40,570 nt of DNA from Terriglobia bacterium. GTDB taxonomy: Bacteria; Acidobacteriota; Terriglobia; Bryobacterales; Bryobacteraceae. Below the pieces are notes generated by a model. It was not told the DNA's origin. It searched no databases and was given only the letters and a program-made list of their open reading frames with translations. The stretch spans positions 1 through 40,570 of the forward strand of contig JANYJA010000009.1 of the NCBI GenBank assembly GCA_025358575.1. The letters are read 5' to 3'. Of the stretch, positions 2,067 to 37,793 are shown in pieces; within the stretch, counting starts at the first letter, position 1; every line of letters starts with the position of its first letter. The position numbers and the translations under genes were made by a program.

Positions 2067-3290
2067 ATGAAGTGGATCAAGTACTCCAAGTACACCGGTG
2101 ACGATCTCGGCATCGACGCCGACGATCTGCTGAAAGCACTTTCCGATTTTCTTCTCGGCTCCGGCTTCGATGCGCAATTCTCCGAGTGGAATTCTCAGGA
2201 CCTGGAACAGCTCAAACAGGCTATTCAGCGCGCCCTCGAAAGCGGAGAATTGTTCCCCGATGAGCGCATGCAGCAAGCCATGGAACAGCTTCAGAACATG
2301 TCGCCCGAGCAGATGAATCAACTTCTCGACACGTTGGTTCAGAAGCTGGTGGACGAAGGGCACCTCACTCTCGACGAGCATCCAGCCAACCCGCAAGCCG
2401 GCAAGGGCAACGGAAACCAAGGCAAGGTGAAGTTCGAAGTCACCGACAAATCGCTTGATTTCCTCGGCTTTAAAACTCTCAAAGATCTGCTCGGCTCCCT
2501 GGGAAAATCCAGTTTCGGACGCCACGATACGCGCGATCTCGCCACCGGCATTGAATCCTCCGGCACCTCGAAGATCTACGAATTTGGTGACACTCTAAAT
2601 CTCGATATCAGCGCGACGCTTTTCTCCGCCGTTCGCCGCGAAGGCGCCACCGTCCCGCTCAATCTCGAATACTCCGACCTCCACGTGCACCAGTGCGAGT
2701 ATCAAAGCTCCTGCGCCACCGTGCTCATGCTCGATTGCAGCCACAGCATGATTCTTTATGGCGAGGACCGCTTTACGCCCGCGAAAAAAGTCGCCATGGC
2801 GCTGGCGCACCTCATCAAAACTCAGTATCCCGGCGACAGCCTTCGCTGCGTTCTATTCCATGACTCCGCCGAAGAGCTTGCCATCAGCCAGCTCGCCCGC
2901 GTGCAGGTCGGCCCGTATTACACCAACACGCGCGATGGCCTCATCCTCGCCCAGAAGCTGCTCGCCCAAGAGCGCAAAGATATGCGCCAGATCATTATGA
3001 TCACGGATGGCAAGCCTTCAGCGCTCACACTGGACGACGGCCGCATCTACCGCAACGCCTTCGGTCTCGACCCGTTGGTCATCAGCCGCACCCTGGAAGA
3101 GGTAAACCGCTGCAAGAAGCAGGGGATTTTGATCAACACCTTCATGCTCGCCAGCGACTACGGCTTGGTCAACTTCGTCCAGAAGGTGACCGAAATCTGC
3201 CGCGGCAAAGCCTACTTCACCACGCCCTATAACCTCGGCCAATACCTCCTGATGGACTACATGAATCGCAAAACGCGCACAATTCACTGA
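2067..3290 (+). CDS. VWA-domain (MIDAS) protein, partner of the AAA+ ATPase
   Basis: 407 aa, cytoplasmic, no signal peptide. The N-terminal 110 residues are helical and rich in Gln, Glu and Met. A linker leads to a C-terminal von Willebrand A domain (about residues 215-395). The metal-ion-dependent adhesion site DCSHS (223-227) matches DxSxS, and MITDGKPSA matches the later MIDAS loop. In ChlI/ChlD-like and MoxR/VWA pairs the VWA subunit recruits the substrate and the hexameric ATPase supplies force. Nine bases separate this start from the ATPase stop, so co-expression is nearly certain. Length and architecture fit the stand-alone VWA partners rather than the larger BchD/CobT chelatase subunits. 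Confidence 0.85.
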   Translation: MKWIKYSKYTGDDLGIDADDLLKALSDFLLGSGFDAQFSEWNSQDLEQLKQAIQRALESGELFPDERMQQAMEQLQNMSPEQMNQLLDTLVQKLVDEGHLTLDEHPANPQAGKGNGNQGKVKFEVTDKSLDFLGFKTLKDLLGSLGKSSFGRHDTRDLATGIESSGTSKIYEFGDTLNLDISATLFSAVRREGATVPLNLEYSDLHVHQCEYQSSCATVLMLDCSHSMILYGEDRFTPAKKVAMALAHLIKTQYPGDSLRCVLFHDSAEELAISQLARVQVGPYYTNTRDGLILAQKLLAQERKDMRQIIMITDGKPSALTLDDGRIYRNAFGLDPLVISRTLEEVNRCKKQGILINTFMLASDYGLVNFVQKVTEICRGKAYFTTPYNLGQYLLMDYMNRKTRTIH

Positions 3291-3366
3291 CCAGCGGCGG
3301 CTTTTACGCAACCGAAGTCCACTGTCCCGCGTTCCACCACATAAGGTTGGAATCTGTGTCTCGAAA

Positions 3367-4018
3367 ATGGCGTTAGTTTTTCTCCCCGTCGCCTTAGCTT
3401 TATTCGCAGCGGATGACCAACCCTGGAAAGACAAGAAAATCGCCGAGGTGGGGGTTACGCTCTGCACCCACTGTGAATCGGACAGCACAATTTTGGCGTC
3501 GTCCTCAAACGAGGGGAATGGGTTATCCCGGCGCGGGCGGTACTGGAATGGGCGGCGGGCGTGGCTACCCAGGCGGCGGTCGTCAGTCCGATGATGGCGA
3601 ACAGTCTTCCACCATGCAGCCTCCCTCATTGAGGTTGCGTTGGGAAAGCGCTCTACCTGTGCGTGAAGCGGAACTTAAGGCCCACGAAACCTCCGCTCCA
3701 TCGGTCGATTCCGATCATTACGCGATAGCCGTCTACGGCGTTCCGAATCGTCTTTTAGACACCGACTCGGACAGCGCGTCGGATCGCCTGAAAAAACAGG
3801 CCACCATGAAACTCACTGGCAAGAAAAACTGGATGCCTTCAAGCGTCCAAATTATTCAACGCGACGAAGGAACTGTCGTTATTTACCTCTTTGCTCGAAC
3901 CAACGAAGTCATTCGTTCCGACAGCCGCCTTGAATTCAACGCCAAGATCGTGCGCATGCAGATCGTGCGCAATTTCTATCCGGAAGAAATGACGATTCAG
4001 GGAAAACTTGAGTTGTAA
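3367..4018 (+). pseudogene. Secreted hypothetical protein gene broken by a short inversion/frameshift
   Basis: ATG 3367 opens a frame with a signal peptide (ALVFLPVALALFAA) and PWKDKKIAE. The readable C-terminal part (Gly-rich GMGYPGAGG, then a folded-looking domain ending MTIQGKLEL, stop 4016-4018) lies in the next frame. The plus-strand bases between about 3445 and 3506 make no sensible peptide in either frame. Their reverse complement encodes EDDAKIVLSDSQWVQSVTPT, which is what I would expect after the signal peptide from memory of similar Acidobacteriota proteins. I therefore read this as one secreted-protein gene damaged by a roughly 60-base inversion plus a one-base frame change. An alternative is that a shorter protein is made from ATG 3413 (201 aa) without a signal peptide. 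Function is unknown. Confidence 0.6.
3445..3506. other. Apparent micro-inversion inside a coding sequence
   Basis: The segment is bounded by GAGG (3445-3448) and CCTC (3503-3506), a 4-base inverted repeat. Flipping it joins IAE to DDAKIVLSDSQWVQSVTPT in the signal-peptide frame; one extra base is still needed to enter the downstream Gly-rich frame. This points to a template-switch type mutation rather than a clean recombinase switch. Confidence 0.5.
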
Positions 4019-17644: not shown

Positions 17645-17870
17645 ATGCCTTCAGCGCCGAACGGCAGCGATCAAAGAGCTGAAGCAGTGCATCGGCGTGC
17701 TCCTCGGGAGTCCGCGCAGCCTTGCTTCCCGAAAACCCGGCAGATCCTGGCGTTCCCTTCCCGTAACTAGTGGTCACCGCAATAAACTTCATCATCTCGA
17801 GCGCGACTTCATCCTTACTTCGGCCTGTCGCTGGCGGTGTTTCGGCCAGCTTGGCGCCTTCCTCAGCCAT
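17643..17870 (-). CDS. Small hypothetical protein (75 aa)
   Basis: Soluble protein with no signal or membrane segment. A predicted helix (DEVALEMMKFIAVTTSYG) and a C-terminal helix (EEHADALLQLFDRCRSAL) flank a Gly/Ser-rich loop. I chose ATG 17870 because AAGGAG lies 8 bases upstream; a longer open frame to 17987 has no ribosome site and runs into the divergent gene. It ends inside the shared terminator. I have seen similar small proteins in Acidobacteriota but know no function. It faces the DUF892 gene across a 106-base divergent gap in which I found no convincing promoter. Confidence 0.65.
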   Translation of the reverse strand: MAEEGAKLAETPPATGRSKDEVALEMMKFIAVTTSYGKGTPGSAGFSGSKAARTPEEHADALLQLFDRCRSALKA

Positions 17871-17976
17871 ATCTTGCTCTCCTTGGAACATCGTAAAACT
17901 TAGCTTACTGTATTTGCCAAATCCTGGTGAATTGCACTTCTCACCGGTTGGCAGTCCGATTGCACCTTCAATCCAC

Positions 17977-18771
17977 ATGACCATCAATGCCCTAGAAGAC
18001 CTCTTTCTTCAAGAGCTCAACGAGCTTTATGATGCCGAGAAGCAAGTTTTAAAGGCGCTTCCCAAAATGGCGAAGGCCGCGTTTTCATCCCAGCTTCGTA
18101 CGGCCTTTGAAACCCATTACAAAGAAACCAAGGTTCAGGTTCTCCGCCTTGAGAAGGTCTACAAAATAATGGGCGAAGAGCCCACCCGCCCGGATTCCCA
18201 GCCGGTCAGCGGCGTAATCGCCCAGGGAAAACAGATGATCGGAGCCAAGCACTCCGACCCGGCCGTGCTGGATGCTGGTTTAATCACCATCGCTCAAAAA
18301 GTTGAGCACTACGAAATTGCCGGTTACGGATGCGTCCGAACCCACGCGGCTATCCTGGGCTATGGCGAAATCGCCGAACTTCTGGCGGACACGCTGCAGG
18401 AAGAAGAAAAGACCGACCGCCTGCTGACTGAAATCGCCACTAGCTTGGTAAACGTCGAAGCCGCGAAGGCCCCATACTCTCACGCCCGCACATCGCCCCG
18501 GGGCGCAATTAAGTCTCAGAAGTATGAGAAGGACGGTTCGTCTTTCGGCACCATTCTGACCGGACTTACCATCGGTGCCGTTGTAGCTATTCTTTTCGCC
18601 CCAAAATCCGGCAAGGACACACGCACTCAGTTGGCGTCCAAAACCAACGAGGGTAAAGACTACCTAAAGCAGCGCGGCACTGAAATTTCGCAGTCTACCC
18701 AGGAACTGATTGACCGGGGGCGACAAGCCATCGCTGGCACCCGCATCCGGGAAAATGAACGGGCGTATTAG
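17977..18771 (+). CDS. DUF892 (YciE-type ferritin-like) protein fused to a YtxH-like tail
   Basis: 264 aa. Residues 1-165 match the DUF892/YciE ferritin-like four-helix bundle: LEDLFLQELNELYDAEKQ, ETHYKETKVQVLRLEKVY, KVEHYEIAGYGC and LADTLQEEEKTDRLL supply Glu/His residues suited to a di-iron site. Residues 190-208 are a hydrophobic segment (FGTILTGLTIGAVVAILFAP) leading to SGKDTRTQLA and an amphipathic helix, the YtxH/stress-protein signature. DUF892 proteins are stress-induced in enteric bacteria. The fusion would tether the bundle to a membrane. ATG 17977 begins the DUF892 domain exactly but lacks a clear ribosome site; a longer frame reaches back to 17770 but antisense-overlaps the neighbouring small gene. 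Confidence 0.85.
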   Translation: MTINALEDLFLQELNELYDAEKQVLKALPKMAKAAFSSQLRTAFETHYKETKVQVLRLEKVYKIMGEEPTRPDSQPVSGVIAQGKQMIGAKHSDPAVLDAGLITIAQKVEHYEIAGYGCVRTHAAILGYGEIAELLADTLQEEEKTDRLLTEIATSLVNVEAAKAPYSHARTSPRGAIKSQKYEKDGSSFGTILTGLTIGAVVAILFAPKSGKDTRTQLASKTNEGKDYLKQRGTEISQSTQELIDRGRQAIAGTRIRENERAY

Positions 18772-31086: not shown

Positions 31087-31971
31087 ATGGCCGACCAAGA
31101 ACGCATCTTACCTGAGCTGCTCTCGAAGCATCAGACACAGATTCTGGAGAGTTGGAGCGCCGAGCAATTGCGCAACCGTCGACCCGGCAAAGCCGGTATC
31201 AGCGAAGAAGATTTGCGTGGGCAATGCCGCGATTTCCTCAATGCTTTACAGGAAGCGTCCCAGGACGATCCCTCTGACGATCTCCAATCCCCCATTTGGG
31301 AGCGCGCCCGCGACATTCTTACCGACATCAGCCGCGAACAGTCCAAGCACGGCGCCAGCCCATCGGATATCGCGACGTTCGTTTTCTCGCTGAAGCAAAT
31401 TCTATTTCAGTTGCTCCAGACGGAAATCGGCAAGAGGCCCGAAGTGTTCGCGCGGGAGATCTGGACAACCACACTAATTCTTGACCGCCTCGGCCTCTTC
31501 ACCACGCAGGTAGCGCTTAAGATCCGCGAGGAGGTGATCGCCCGTCAGCAATCCGAAATGCTGGAGCTTTCCACGCCCGTGGTTAAGCTTTGGGACGGAG
31601 TCTTGGCGCTGCCCTTGATCGGCACTCTCGACAGCGAACGCACGCAGGTCGTAATGGAAAGCCTTCTAGAGGAAATCGTTCGCACCGGGGCTGGCATCGC
31701 CATTATCGACATCACCGGCGTTCCCACCGTCGATACCCTGGTGGCTCAACATCTTCTCAAGACCGTCGCCGCCGCGCGCCTCATGGGCGCGGAATGTATC
31801 ATTAGCGGTATTCGTCCCCAAATCGCCGCAACCATCGTTCATCTCGGGGTGGACCTGGGCGACGTTTCTACTAAGGCGACCCTCGCCGACGCTTTTGCCA
31901 TCGCTCTCCGCCGCAACAATCTTGTGGTAACCAGAACGACACCGGCAGCTCGACGGCAGTCGGCGGAATAG
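31087..31971 (+). CDS. rsbR: RsbR-type stressosome scaffold protein (RsbRD + STAS)
   Basis: 294 aa. Residues 1-150 match the RsbRD-type N-terminal sensor domain (LLSKHQTQILESWSAEQL at 11-28); this is not the globin-like fold of B. subtilis RsbRA. Residues 160-280 are a STAS domain: LSTPVVKLWDGVLALPLIG, IIDITGVPTVDTLVAQHLL and SGIRPQIAATIVHLGV. Thr217 (in VDT) and Thr249 (in AAT) are the likely counterparts of the RsbRA phospho-threonines Thr171 and Thr205. RsbR and RsbS form the 1.8 MDa stressosome core that holds RsbT until stress. First gene of the operon; rsbS follows 7 bases later. Confidence 0.92.
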   Translation: MADQERILPELLSKHQTQILESWSAEQLRNRRPGKAGISEEDLRGQCRDFLNALQEASQDDPSDDLQSPIWERARDILTDISREQSKHGASPSDIATFVFSLKQILFQLLQTEIGKRPEVFAREIWTTTLILDRLGLFTTQVALKIREEVIARQQSEMLELSTPVVKLWDGVLALPLIGTLDSERTQVVMESLLEEIVRTGAGIAIIDITGVPTVDTLVAQHLLKTVAAARLMGAECIISGIRPQIAATIVHLGVDLGDVSTKATLADAFAIALRRNNLVVTRTTPAARRQSAE

Positions 31972-31978
31972 GAGACAA

Positions 31979-32377
31979 GTGGACCGTATTCCAATTCTTA
32001 AACTGGGCGATTTTCTCTTGGTCACCGTACAGGTTGACATGCACGACCGCCTCGCCATGAATCTGCAGGAAGACTTAACCGACAAAATTGTCTCCGCTCA
32101 TGCACGCGGCGTCCTCATCGATATCTCAGCGCTCGATATGGTGGATTCTTTCATCGGAAGAATGCTCGGAAACATTGCCTCCATGTCGCGAATCCTTGAT
32201 GCTGAAACCGTGGTGGTCGGCATGCGTCCGGCCGTCGCCATCACTTTGGTTGAATTGGGGCTCTCTTTGCCTGGCGTCCGAACCGCTCTCAACGTCGAGA
32301 GGGGCATGGAGATGCTTCGAGCCACAATTTCCGTCTACGCAGCCGAGTACTCCGAGTACCATGGCGATCCGTTCTGA
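31979..32377 (+). CDS. rsbS: RsbS, single-STAS stressosome core protein
   Basis: 132 aa STAS protein. IPILKLGDFLLVTVQ, MNLQEDLTDKIV, DISALDMVDSFIGRMLGNI and GMRPAVAITLVELGL closely track B. subtilis RsbS. Ser57 in VDSF is the counterpart of Ser59, which RsbT phosphorylates to release itself. The protein has about 10 extra C-terminal residues. It starts at GTG 31979 with AGGAGA just upstream. The rsbT start lies 17 bases inside its 3' end. Confidence 0.94.
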   Translation: MDRIPILKLGDFLLVTVQVDMHDRLAMNLQEDLTDKIVSAHARGVLIDISALDMVDSFIGRMLGNIASMSRILDAETVVVGMRPAVAITLVELGLSLPGVRTALNVERGMEMLRATISVYAAEYSEYHGDPF

Positions 32378-32762
32378 ATCCTTGCCGATCCTGTCATCGG
32401 AGGATGTGGTGACCGTTCGCCGGCGCGTCCGCGCCATGGCTATTGAGCAAGGCTTGAAGCTGATCGATCAAACCAAAATCATTACCGCGACAAGCGAGTT
32501 GGCCCGCAACACATTTGTTTTTGGAGGGGGTGGGACCGTTCTGCTTGAAGCGCTGGAAAGCGGGGGACGCTACGGCGTCCGCCTCACGTTTGAAGATCGT
32601 GGACCTGGAATTGCAGACCTCACCCTTGCGATGAAGGATGGCTACACCACGGGTGGAGGCCTTGGACTGGGGCTGAGCGGCGCTAAACGGCTGTCCAACG
32701 AATTCGAGATCGACAGTCGATTGGGGGAAGGTACGCGCGTGACTATCACCCGCTGGCGTTGA
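32361..32762 (+). CDS. rsbT: RsbT, serine/threonine switch kinase
   Basis: 133 aa GHKL-fold kinase. The N box is SELARNTFVFGGGG, G1 is EDRGPGI and G2 is GGGLGLGLSGAKRL. It is expected to phosphorylate RsbS and RsbR, then leave the stressosome to bind an effector. In Bacillus that effector is the RsbU phosphatase; here the likely targets are the downstream fusion proteins. ATG 32361 overlaps rsbS by 17 bases, and its TGA overlaps the next start (TTGA), a compact translationally coupled array. Confidence 0.93.
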   Translation: MAIRSESLPILSSEDVVTVRRRVRAMAIEQGLKLIDQTKIITATSELARNTFVFGGGGTVLLEALESGGRYGVRLTFEDRGPGIADLTLAMKDGYTTGGGLGLGLSGAKRLSNEFEIDSRLGEGTRVTITRWR

Positions 32763-33778
32763 ATACTAGGGTGCGACCCGATATTTTAATTACCGTTCTG
32801 GAGCCGACGGATGTTGCCAGAGCGCGCCGGTTGGCATTGCAGGCGGCACAAAAAGCTGAGTTTGGCGAAAACGAGTCGGGTGCGCTGGCTCTAGTGGTAA
32901 CTGAGGCTGCGTCCAACCTGGTCAAGCATGGGGGAGGCGGCGATCTGATCGTTCGGGAAATCTCCAACTCACGTCCGTTGCTCGAAATCATCGCCATCGA
33001 CAGCGGAAAAGGTATGCCGGACGTGTCGCGCTGTTTCGCCGATGGATACTCAACTGCGGGAAGCGCGGGAATTGGGCTGGGGGCCATCGCACGGCTTTCG
33101 CAACTGCACGACATTTTTTCCTCCGCAGACAAGGGCACCGTCCTGATGGCTCAGGTAGGCCCCGGTACGACCGAAACGGATGACCGCCTTGACATCGGCG
33201 CAATCAGTATCCCTTATCCCGGGGAGGACGTTTGTGGTGACGCGTGGGGTCTCGACGTTTCTCCGGAACGTATCCGGCTCATCGTCGCCGATGGATTGGG
33301 TCATGGCGTGTCTGCCTCGAAAGCCTCGACGGCGGCTGTCCGCACTGTGAGCGATCGTCGGAATCTGCAGCCTACCCATGTTCTGGAAGCGGCGCACTTG
33401 TTGCTGAAAGCCACTCGCGGCGCGGCCGCTGGCGTCGTGGATGTGGATTCATCAGCGACCGAAGCAAATTTCGCCTCTGTAGGCAATGTGGCCGGAGCCA
33501 CCGTGTCTGAATCCGGAGTTCGACGTCAGATGATTTCACTCAACGGGACGCTCGGGCATCAAATGTCTGGAGCCCGCCAATATCCATATCCGCTGGAGCG
33601 GAATAGCCTGATCGTGGTTCATTCCGATGGCGTTGGCGCGCACTGGTCTCTCGAAAAATATCCGGGTTTGGCGCAACGCCACCCGAGTGTGATCGCTGGC
33701 GTCCTGTTCCGCGATTTCCGCCGCACTCGCGACGATGCAACGGTGGTTGTCATCCGTCCGCACAGCGTGAGATCATGA
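32759..33778 (+). CDS. GHKL-ATPase/PP2C phosphatase fusion (RsbX-like)
   Basis: 339 aa. Residues 1-135 are an RsbT/RsbW-like ATPase with TEAASNLVKHGGGG (N box, 48-61), IDSGKGMPD and GIGLGAIARL. Residues 145-335 are a SpoIIE/RsbX-type PP2C phosphatase: GDAWGL (160-165), VADGLGHG (176-183), HSDGVGAHW and a final DDATVVVI with the metal-binding Asp pair. It likely dephosphorylates RsbR and RsbS to reset the stressosome, as RsbX does. Bacillus RsbX lacks the kinase domain. Starts TTG 32759 (overlapping the rsbT stop) or GTG 32771. It shares an ATGA overlap with the next gene. Confidence 0.9.
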   Translation: MNTRVRPDILITVLEPTDVARARRLALQAAQKAEFGENESGALALVVTEAASNLVKHGGGGDLIVREISNSRPLLEIIAIDSGKGMPDVSRCFADGYSTAGSAGIGLGAIARLSQLHDIFSSADKGTVLMAQVGPGTTETDDRLDIGAISIPYPGEDVCGDAWGLDVSPERIRLIVADGLGHGVSASKASTAAVRTVSDRRNLQPTHVLEAAHLLLKATRGAAAGVVDVDSSATEANFASVGNVAGATVSESGVRRQMISLNGTLGHQMSGARQYPYPLERNSLIVVHSDGVGAHWSLEKYPGLAQRHPSVIAGVLFRDFRRTRDDATVVVIRPHSVRS

Positions 33779-35952
33779 GCCTCCCCATCATTTCCATCAG
33801 CATTCAGTTTGAACATGATGTGGTGGAATCCCGCCAGCGCGCGCGGCAGGTGGCCGAAGCGCTCGGATTTGAAGGCCCACAGCAAACTCGATTGGCAACC
33901 GCGGTTTCTGAAATCACGCGCAACGCGTTTACTTATGCGGGAGGCGGCCGGGCGGAATTCTTTCTCGACGGATCTTCCGTGCCCCAACTGCTTTTAATTC
34001 GCGTCACGGATCACGGCAAGGGAATTTCAAATCTCGCTGAGATACTTGAAGGCCGTTATCGCTCGGACACTGGAATGGGTCTCGGCATAACCGGCGCCCG
34101 GCGCCTGATGGATAAATTTACCATCACGACCGCTCCAGGCGAGGGAACGGAAGTGGTACTCGGAAAATTGCTGCCTCGCCGCGCTCCCCTCATCACGCCA
34201 GCGATGCTGTCGAAACTCGTTACGCGGATTGAGAAGCAAAAGCCGCGAACTTTACTCCATGAGTTCCGCGAACAGAACCGGGAGTTAATGCGCACTCTGG
34301 ACGAATTGCGCAAGCGTCAAGACGAGTTGCTCAGCCTGAATCGGGAGCTGGAAGATACCAATCGGGGTGTCGTCGCGCTCTATGCCGAACTGGACGAAAG
34401 GGCCGACCGCTTGCGCAGCGCCGATGATCTGAAGTCGCGCTTCCTTTGGAACATGAGCCATGAGTTCCGCACACCGCTGAACTCGATACTGGCGCTTTCG
34501 CATTTGCTCATTGACCGGGCCGATGGCGATTTGACCGCGGAGCAGGAGACGCAGGTAGCATTTATTCGGAAGTCCGCCGAAAGCCTGTACCAACTTGTGA
34601 ACGATCTGCTCGATTTTGCGAAGGTCGAGGCCGGAAAGACTGTAGTTCGGCCAATCGAGTTCAAAGTGAACGATCTTTTCGGCGCACTGCGCGGCATGCT
34701 GCGACCGCTGCTTGCCGGTTCGACAGTTAGCCTCAACTTCGAAGAAGCGGACCAAATTCCGGACGTCTATTCCGATGAAGGCAAAATCTCGCAAATCCTG
34801 CGAAACTTCATTTCAAACGCTTTGAAGTTTACGCAGACTGGCGAAGTTCGCGTGTCCGCCAGCCATGACGCCAACCGCAGCCTCGTTGAATTTCACGTCA
34901 AGGACACCGGTATTGGGATTGCTCCAGAGCACATCGAAAAAATTTTCGAGGAGTTTGGCCAGATAGATAATCCGATTCAACGAACTCTAAAAGGCACGGG
35001 CCTGGGGCTCACGCTATCGCGCAAACTGGCCGCGGTGCTGGGCGGTTCCGTCAGTGTGGCGAGCCAAGTCGGCACCGGATCGGTTTTCTCAGTCAGCTTG
35101 CCGCAATTTTATGCAGCCGCGAAAAGAACTTCCGCAACGGAGACTTTAACCCCCGAAGCCTCGCGACAGCGTTCGGTCCTGGTGGTCGAAGACCACTTTG
35201 AAACACGCCTGCTTTATACCAAAATGCTGCAGGATTCGCCCTGGCAGATACTTTCGGCGAAATCGATTCGCGAAGCCGAAAACATCCTCCGCAATGTAAC
35301 GCCGTCGGCCATTCTGCTGGACACCTTCCTGACGGGCGAAGACACGTTCCAATTTTTGGCTCAATTAAAGTCGGATGATTCCACGCATAAAATCGCCGTC
35401 CTGGTAGTAACCGCGGTCGACGATCGCTCAAAAGCCATGGCCCTAGGAGCTGATGCCTATGCGGTCAAGCCGATTACGAGGCAATTTCTCCTCGACACAC
35501 TCCGCCGTCTCGCCGATCCCCCTTTAAAAGCGACTGTGCTTCTTGTGGACGACGAAGATGTTTCAAGATATTTGTGGAAACAGCTGTTAAACAATCCCGA
35601 CATCCGTCTTCTCGAAGCCACTGACGGCGCGAATGGATTGGAAAGGGCCCGCATGGAAAAACCCGATCTTGTGATCATGGACTTGAGCATGCCTCGGATG
35701 AACGGTTTTGAGGCCATTGATAGTATGAAGAAAGACCCTGTCTTGCGAGACATTCCAGTGCTCGTCTCGACTTCGAAGATTCTCACGGAGGAAGATTTCC
35801 GATGCTTGGCTGGGCATGTGCTTGGAATAATGCCGAAAGCCAGCCTTTCGGAGAGTGGTATCGAGAGCCGCCTGCGTTCTATGCTGCAACCAGCCAGCCT
35901 TGAATATCTTGTTGCCTCGCCGGAAACCGCAACGAAAGGCGGAAATAGATAA
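33775..35952 (+). CDS. Hybrid histidine kinase with N-terminal RsbT-like ATPase domain
   Basis: 725 aa, no membrane segment. Residues 1-130 are a GHKL ATPase of RsbT/RsbW type (SEITRNAFTYAGGG, DHGKGI, GMGLGITGARR). Residues 150-215 are a predicted coiled coil. HisKA has His229 in MSHEFRTPLNS. The second HATPase is at about 335-445 (NFISNALKFTQTG, DTGIGI, GTGLGLTLSRKLA). Two receiver domains follow: Asp516 with Lys565, and Asp636 with Lys688. I infer that the N-terminal domain is the input, docking on the stressosome or reading RsbR/RsbS, and that the kinase passes phosphate to its own or separate receivers. The start forms an ATGA overlap with the phosphatase gene. Confidence 0.92.
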   Translation: MSLPIISISIQFEHDVVESRQRARQVAEALGFEGPQQTRLATAVSEITRNAFTYAGGGRAEFFLDGSSVPQLLLIRVTDHGKGISNLAEILEGRYRSDTGMGLGITGARRLMDKFTITTAPGEGTEVVLGKLLPRRAPLITPAMLSKLVTRIEKQKPRTLLHEFREQNRELMRTLDELRKRQDELLSLNRELEDTNRGVVALYAELDERADRLRSADDLKSRFLWNMSHEFRTPLNSILALSHLLIDRADGDLTAEQETQVAFIRKSAESLYQLVNDLLDFAKVEAGKTVVRPIEFKVNDLFGALRGMLRPLLAGSTVSLNFEEADQIPDVYSDEGKISQILRNFISNALKFTQTGEVRVSASHDANRSLVEFHVKDTGIGIAPEHIEKIFEEFGQIDNPIQRTLKGTGLGLTLSRKLAAVLGGSVSVASQVGTGSVFSVSLPQFYAAAKRTSATETLTPEASRQRSVLVVEDHFETRLLYTKMLQDSPWQILSAKSIREAENILRNVTPSAILLDTFLTGEDTFQFLAQLKSDDSTHKIAVLVVTAVDDRSKAMALGADAYAVKPITRQFLLDTLRRLADPPLKATVLLVDDEDVSRYLWKQLLNNPDIRLLEATDGANGLERARMEKPDLVIMDLSMPRMNGFEAIDSMKKDPVLRDIPVLVSTSKILTEEDFRCLAGHVLGIMPKASLSESGIESRLRSMLQPASLEYLVASPETATKGGNR

Positions 35953-37793
35953 TGAACCGAAAACCTTTGATTCTCAACATTGATGACAATGAGGCGGGCC
36001 GCTATGTAGTGTGCAAACAACTCCGGCAGGCGGACTTCGACGTTGCCGAAGCCGGCGCCGGTGAAGCGGGCCTGCAAATGGCCGCGACTCACGTGCCGGA
36101 CCTGATACTGCTTGACGTGCGCCTCCCCGACATCGATGGTTATGAGGTTTGCCGGCGAATCCGCGACAACCCCGCAATCGCGGGAATTCCCGTGATTCAG
36201 ATGTCGGCTTCATACGTTGACACCTCATCGCGCGTGAAGGGTCTCGAAAATGGCGCCAACGCGTACCTGACCCATCCGCTCGAAGGCGCCATGCTGCTGG
36301 CTACGATCAGATCGCTGCTGCGCATGAAGCACGCCGAGCAGACTGTCAGGCATGCCGCCTCGCGGTGGCAGACCACGTTCGAAGCCATACAGGATGGCGT
36401 GGCGCTGCTCGATGTCGATGGCCATTTGCTCCAGGCGAACGAGGCGTTTTCCGAACATCTCGGGAATGATGGCGCGTCGACCAATGAAGTCATTGGCGAT
36501 TTGTTTGGCCGTTGCCGCTCCACGTCGACTAGACAAACCGCTGAACATACGTCAGCCGGCAAAATCCTCAGCATCAGAATGGATCCTGTTCGCGAGAACG
36601 ATGAATTTTCCGGAGCCGTCTGCATCGTCGATGACATCAGCGAACAGAGGACTTTCGAGGAGCACTTGAGGCACACCGCGAAAATCGAGAGCATCGGCAT
36701 ATTGGCCGGTGGCATCGCGCATGATTTCAATAATCTGTTAACCGGCATTCTCGGCAATGCCAGCCTAATGGAAGAAACGCTTCCGGAAAGCAGCCCCGAT
36801 CGCGCGCTTCTCCAGGAAATCATTCGCGCGGGGCGAAGCGCAGCGGATCTAACTCGGCAAATTCTTACGTACTCCGGAAAAAGCCGCTTTTTGATGCAGC
36901 CCATCGACTTATCGGCAGCAGTTCTCGAGAGCCGCGCTTTCGTCAAACGATTCATGCCGGTCTTGGTAGAGATCATGTTCGATGCCGCGCCGGATCTCCC
37001 TTACATCGAGGCTGACGCCGGACAGATGCAGCAACTGATCATGAACCTGATCATCAACGCCGCCGAATCCTTCGGCGACTCTGTCAAAGGTTCTATTCGC
37101 GTCACAACAGGCGTGGAATGCATAAATAAGCAGAGTTATGTTTCGCTCACCGTTTCCGACAACGGCAGCGGCATGGACGAAGCAACGCAACAACGCATTT
37201 TCGATCCGTTTTTCACCACCAAATTTGCAGGACGCGGGCTCGGCCTGTCAGCCGTGCACGGCATTCTGGAAGGTCATAAAGGAATTCTCAACGTGCAAAG
37301 CAAACCCGGTGAAGGAACCACGTTTCATATTTCTTTTCCGGTTAGCGATCGTCGCCCGCGGCACAACCCGCTAGTAGAGAAGCCCTATCGAAAGGGCGCC
37401 GGCACCATTCTGGTGGTGGATGACGAACCTGTTGTTCGCAACTTTGCCCAAGCCGCGCTGGTGCACTTGGGCTATCGCGTGCTGCTTGCCGAAAACGGAG
37501 CTGAATGCGTTAAATTGTTTCGCAACTTGCACACCGAAATCAGCCTTGTTCTGCTCGACTTCACAATGCCCGTGATGAACGGCGAAGAAACCTTTGAAAA
37601 TCTCCGCGGCATCTCGCCCGAGATGCCGGTAATCCTATCAAGCGGCTTGAGCCACGCGATTACCGCCGAGCGTTTTCGCGGCAAAGCCGTGGCCGGATTT
37701 CTTAGCAAGCCCTACACCGGCACGCAATTGAGCGATGCTATCGCATCCGCCCTGCACGGCGAACCCGCCCTGCTGCCGACTGAAATAACTTAG
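35952..37793 (+). CDS. REC-PAS-histidine kinase-REC hybrid protein
   Basis: 613 aa, cytoplasmic. The first receiver (1-125) has Asp55 in LILLDVRLPD; the usual Lys-Pro is His108-Pro. A PAS domain follows (about 135-235: FEAIQDGVALLDVDGHLLQANEAF). The HisKA-like region has His257 in GGIAHDFNNLLTG, the HWE-free HDFNN class, and HATPase at 350-465 (MNLIINAAESFG, DNGSGMD, RGLGLSAVHGIL). The last receiver (483-600) has Asp536 and Lys586. The start overlaps the previous stop (TAATG), so the gene belongs to the operon. The first receiver probably accepts phosphate from the preceding kinase. No DNA-binding output is present. Confidence 0.92.
   Translation: MNRKPLILNIDDNEAGRYVVCKQLRQADFDVAEAGAGEAGLQMAATHVPDLILLDVRLPDIDGYEVCRRIRDNPAIAGIPVIQMSASYVDTSSRVKGLENGANAYLTHPLEGAMLLATIRSLLRMKHAEQTVRHAASRWQTTFEAIQDGVALLDVDGHLLQANEAFSEHLGNDGASTNEVIGDLFGRCRSTSTRQTAEHTSAGKILSIRMDPVRENDEFSGAVCIVDDISEQRTFEEHLRHTAKIESIGILAGGIAHDFNNLLTGILGNASLMEETLPESSPDRALLQEIIRAGRSAADLTRQILTYSGKSRFLMQPIDLSAAVLESRAFVKRFMPVLVEIMFDAAPDLPYIEADAGQMQQLIMNLIINAAESFGDSVKGSIRVTTGVECINKQSYVSLTVSDNGSGMDEATQQRIFDPFFTTKFAGRGLGLSAVHGILEGHKGILNVQSKPGEGTTFHISFPVSDRRPRHNPLVEKPYRKGAGTILVVDDEPVVRNFAQAALVHLGYRVLLAENGAECVKLFRNLHTEISLVLLDFTMPVMNGEETFENLRGISPEMPVILSSGLSHAITAERFRGKAVAGFLSKPYTGTQLSDAIASALHGEPALLPTEIT

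Follow-up and report, generated by a model that had tools for sequence, protein, structure and literature searches.

The window analysed here is a whole contig (C61) of 40,570 nucleotides from a draft Terriglobia genome of 4.77 Mb, which comprises 261 contigs and is 95.6% complete. The genome is probably a metagenome bin, as are its six named relatives, whose labels are Bryobacterales, Terriglobia or Acidobacteriales. The contig carries a gene of a secreted-protein family whose members consist of a signal peptide, a WKDK-like segment, a W..DDA..VL.DSPW motif, a Gly-rich linker and a conserved C-terminal domain. All of these pieces are found in the window gene, but they are rearranged and the stretch around the conserved W is partly absent. 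No Pfam or NCBIfam model matched the family of this gene. With the C-terminal part alone as query, 46 of the 237 genomes of the family gave a match at E <= 1e-20, and the re-joined protein found matches in 42 of 61 genomes at E <= 0.001, the source genome being counted both times. The locus contains the following features:

3356 to 3370, plus strand: likely original start, GTG TCT CGA AAA TGG (V/M-S-R-K-W), proposed because homologues begin with M-x-x-K-W
3367 to 3447, plus strand: signal peptide and WKDK segment, MALVFLPVALALFAADDQPWKDKKIAE, taken from the list of open reading frames and aligned to homologues
3371 to 3372, plus strand: likely second lesion, the loss of one base, after which the start and the signal peptide would no longer share a frame, from a comparison by eye of locus L034 with the window
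3445 to 3506, minus strand: inverted segment with a 4-bp terminal inverted repeat, GAGG/CCTC, whose minus strand (3506 to 3447) encodes EDDAKIVLSDSQWVQSVTPT
3509 to 4018, plus strand: the Gly-rich linker followed by the conserved C-terminal domain, which share the frame of ATG 3413, contain no internal stop and have matches in relatives

Elsewhere in the window, genes for RsbRD_N/STAS, HATPase and SpoIIE proteins and for two hybrid histidine kinases with receiver domains form a run at 31087-37793; this is an Rsb-type regulatory cluster, which we take to be stressosome-like. An open reading frame at 17770-18771 appears to be a fusion of DUF892 (residues 75-231) and YtxH (residues 260-319).

The first-pass annotation of this DNA had noted that the signal-peptide frame and the C-terminal frame do not join, and that the segment between them, bounded by GAGG and CCTC, encodes a coherent peptide when read as its reverse complement. 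Both observations are accurate. Past the WKDK segment (...QPWKDKKIAE), the codons in the frame of ATG 3367 become unrelated, and a stop ends this frame after 75 codons; the C-terminal domain lies in another frame, in which the reading frame from ATG 3413 (201 aa) is open through 4018. The edges of the segment are exact, with GAGG at 3445-3448 and CCTC at 3503-3506. A profile built from the N-terminal motifs of 21 homologues, run against all six frames of the window and of the homologous loci, matched the minus-strand reading frame with an E-value of 8.8e-6 (24.3 bits). The 20-residue peptide alone scored 30.8 bits, compared with a maximum of 10.4 bits among 5000 dinucleotide shuffles read in six frames, which rules out a chance peptide. 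The assembly contains this segment once, with no second copy in either orientation; an inverted duplication is thereby ruled out and the rearrangement is an inversion. A search of viral contigs with a 30-base piece gave no match. A 203-aa reading frame on the minus strand (3018-3629) extends across the inverted segment, so that its translation includes the original peptide, and is probably there by chance.

In homologues, the peptide is encoded in the sense direction and lies between the signal-peptide/WKDK segment and the Gly-rich linker, the latter being variable. The motif that the first-pass annotation had given for such proteins is indeed present in them, but it does not follow straight after PWKDK: homologues keep a conserved W and its neighbours in between, typically as A-[E/D/Q]-W-[T/S/N]-x-D-D-A. 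Two examples that hold the three pieces in order are L034 (...TWKDKRVAEWSEDDAKQVLTDSPWVKTVQPT...) and L063 (...PWKDKPIAQWTEDDAKIVLTDSPWARQ...). We compared the orientation of the motif at 53 homologous loci, defined by a C-terminal match at E <= 1e-8, with the copies from the window and weaker C-terminal matches left out. The motif was in sense orientation at 48 of these and in antisense orientation at none, and at the five loci without it the frame reaches the end of the contig ahead of the motif in every case. As ten of the 53 loci repeat a gene that is represented two or three times in the set, we also counted distinct reading frames, and 39 of 43 were sense, none antisense and four cut by the contig end. 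The 21 sequences used to train the profile are among the 53 loci and match it by construction; the strand, on the other hand, is that of their own genes. At the protein level, the window segment is therefore the reverse complement of its counterpart in the homologues. The ancestral state is deduced from relatives that are no more than about 60% identical, and those compared include no other genome of the genus g1. Thus, the proposal that a short inversion lies within a secreted-protein gene with relatives in the Acidobacteriota withstood both observations that would have spoken against it, as homologues do join the three pieces in order and none of them is oriented as in the window.

Flipping the segment back shows how much of the damage the inversion explains. 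We aligned the region to five homologues with a frameshift-tolerant method, once with 3445-3506 as it stands and once re-inverted. Re-inversion raised the score in all five alignments, by 38 to 48 (L034, 557 to 605; L057, 418 to 462; L063, 407 to 450; L042, 502 to 546; L045, 528 to 566). In all five, however, three residues of the W stretch were still missing and one frameshift remained, and the change is not a pure microinversion, clean and free of any other alteration. The first-pass annotation had suggested an inversion plus a one-base change; the inversion stands, but instead of a one-base change we find three codons absent on one side and the frame off on the other. The persistence of both defects after re-inversion favours a single inversion accompanied by losses at its junctions over an inversion followed by a separate base change, and such a single event would account for the gap and the frame break at least as well as two separate ones.

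The same comparison bears on the earlier suggestion of a phase switch, that is, a reversible intragenic inverton toggling secretion of the protein. Gut invertons are often found near cell-surface genes, according to the cited portion of PMC11892184, and the segment in the window does end in a short inverted repeat. After the clean flip, however, the frame is still broken and the codons are still missing, and no coherent alternative state results, which speaks against a switch, and only one orientation is found in the assembly. The terminal repeat is perfect but 4 bp long with no outward extension, so the remark in the first-pass annotation that the repeats are just four bases was correct. Recombinase switches generally need longer inverted-repeat arms than these. 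The absence of inverted copies among the 53 homologous loci also argues against switching, and a loop this short would be hard to form if what the part of PMC8755829 used here argues for shorter segments can be extended to it. We therefore regard a phase switch as extremely improbable. Ends of the kind seen here occur in 202 of 40,509 (0.5%) of the 62-bp segments of the window, a figure that understates the true chance because the ends were picked with the repeat already known. They amount to a short inverted repeat, or microhomology, at the edges, as read in the present-day letters.

Upstream of the inversion, a second lesion may have affected the start of the gene. The putative start GTG 3356 is preceded by AAGG at 3343-3346, and the sequence GTG TCT CGA AAA TGG shares its frame with the C-terminal domain. 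Homologues at L034, L057 and L046 begin with M-x-x-K-W. The frame from GTG 3356 translates as VSRKWR*, with CGT followed by TAG at 3374. A start in the C-terminal frame that runs into CGT and a stop suggests that one base was lost at 3371-3372, which we consider likely. Counter to this, the alignments to the five homologues carry the frame of ATG 3367 back to 3358-3364 with no frameshift. The N-terminus of the family gene is also broken in one relative (G062, L046 1266-1330), in which the signal peptide and the WKDK segment are gone and ATG TCA CCC AAG TGG leads out of frame directly into the LTDSPWAKTVKPSV part. The deletion in L046 begins right after M-x-x-K-W, near the likely one-base lesion of the window. 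One might speculate that the N-terminal part of the family's genes is especially prone to mutation and that secretion has been lost there again and again, as a recurrent and perhaps selected state, but we hold this to be very improbable.

The C-terminal domain is 50-62% identical to that of five relatives and open across 167 codons. As the frame is broken and the signal peptide severed from the domain, the gene is, judged from its sequence, most likely a recent pseudogene; the open C-terminal domain indicates that decay is recent or that this part is still in use. The second possibility would mean that the new arrangement has been put to use: a C-terminal product, remodelled or not secreted and starting for instance at ATG 3413, would be made and selected. 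The 201-aa frame open to 4018 is compatible with this, as is the small number of altered conserved C-terminal residues: two of 32 columns at 90% conservation and six of 53 at 80%. For the nearest relatives, L041 and L045, one of 31 columns is changed in each at 90%, and one and two of 51, respectively, at 80%; the other members of the family have 0-7 changes at 90% and 1-11 at 80%. Such a product would, however, be without a signal peptide, and the C-terminal branch of the window is long. In a first tree, from which ten loci were skipped (eight of them from places already represented) and weaker-match loci left out, this branch measured 0.56 and those of the two nearest relatives 0.13; in a second tree it measured 0.46, with the other 12 branches ranging from 0.12 to 0.46 and that of relative G035 as long as that of the window. 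Since the branches of the VWA protein (0.15) and the PRPP synthetase (0.21) of the same genome are also longish, the long C-terminal branch is no proof of relaxed selection. Overall, we find a used product improbable. A structure model of the domain (3614-4015) reached moderate confidence (mean pLDDT 65), and a structural search with it against the PDB gave nothing at E <= 0.001, the best match being a weak Ig-like one at 0.027.

A further explanation is that the gene is intact on the chromosome and that the inversion, perhaps together with the nearby one-base loss, was made during assembly or amplification. The genome is a draft in 261 contigs and probably a metagenome bin, and two lesions, one of them merely likely, fall within about 130 bases of a gene whose C-terminal frame is otherwise open. 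Against an artefact, the two other genes of the contig that we compared look complete: the VWA protein aligned over 1-407 of 407 residues with eight of 12 other genomes (two partly, two not at all), and 1-322 or more of the 323 residues of the PRPP synthetase aligned with ten of 12 (two in pieces). The assembly has no second copy of the segment in either orientation, and the missing codons would require more than a flipped segment. We infer that the assembly is correct here and consider an artefact unlikely. Gene order was not conserved, as the VWA gene and the family gene lie on different contigs in all ten relatives in which both could be placed, and nine stretches around the VWA gene of relatives were without any match to the family.

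Taking the evidence together, we think it quite probable that the locus is best explained by one irreversible, microhomology-guided inversion with losses at its junctions, which made the gene a recent pseudogene. Through one mutation in this lineage, a short coding stretch would have been swapped for its own reverse complement, with bases lost at the junctions. A DNA end or a nascent strand with GAG(G) as its last bases would most likely have annealed to the complementary CCTC about 60 bases away, copied the stretch backwards and resumed downstream, either by template switching at the fork, which is plausible, or by microhomology-guided break repair. On the left, this would have removed the three codons around the conserved W; in the middle and on the right, it would have reversed the EDDAK...VTPT stretch and rejoined it out of frame. 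A single secreted chain would then no longer be possible, and the resulting pseudogene would probably carry the second, one-base lesion at its start as well.

Similar mutations have been described in other organisms. In a human-chimpanzee set (Potapova et al., PMC8755829), the portion cited here reports 59 microinversions of 17-33 nt, usually born pure, all 59 with flanking inverted repeats that are perfect or nearly so and 50% with 4-8 nt per flank; two template switches within repeats of 3-4 nt are held hard to imagine there, and microhomology-mediated break-induced replication is preferred as the mechanism. The window resembles these cases in that a short segment is replaced by its reverse complement between inverted repeats of a few bases. 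Unlike them, it is bacterial, with codons missing and the frame broken, and its greater length (about 60 nt) and lesser purity weigh against our preferred explanation. In yeast genes, template switching can flip a spacer that is flanked by inverted repeats (PMC8604942, as excerpted), and template-switch mutations arise at inverted repeats in E. coli quasipalindromes (PMC7202029, as excerpted). Here, too, a spacer between inverted repeats could have been inverted by polymerase switching, but the window has just 4 bp of repeat and has lost bases in addition. Intragenic invertons (Chanin et al. 2024, as cited in the available part of PMC11868660) likewise lie within bacterial coding genes; in contrast to these, the window gene is not restored by flipping and its arms are 4 bp. 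The excerpted text of a bacterial paper (PMC2483231) touches on microinversions in passing, and those are of mammals.

The case is most probably a known kind of mutation, an ordinary copying or repair accident and not a switch. Inversions of tens of bases are easily missed because a gene caller displays just the broken frame. The window offers a bacterial example that can be read clearly, and it indicates that a gene called 'frameshifted' in a draft genome may conceal a short inversion. A dead-end inversion can be told from a phase switch by a simple test, namely whether re-inverting the segment brings the gene back.
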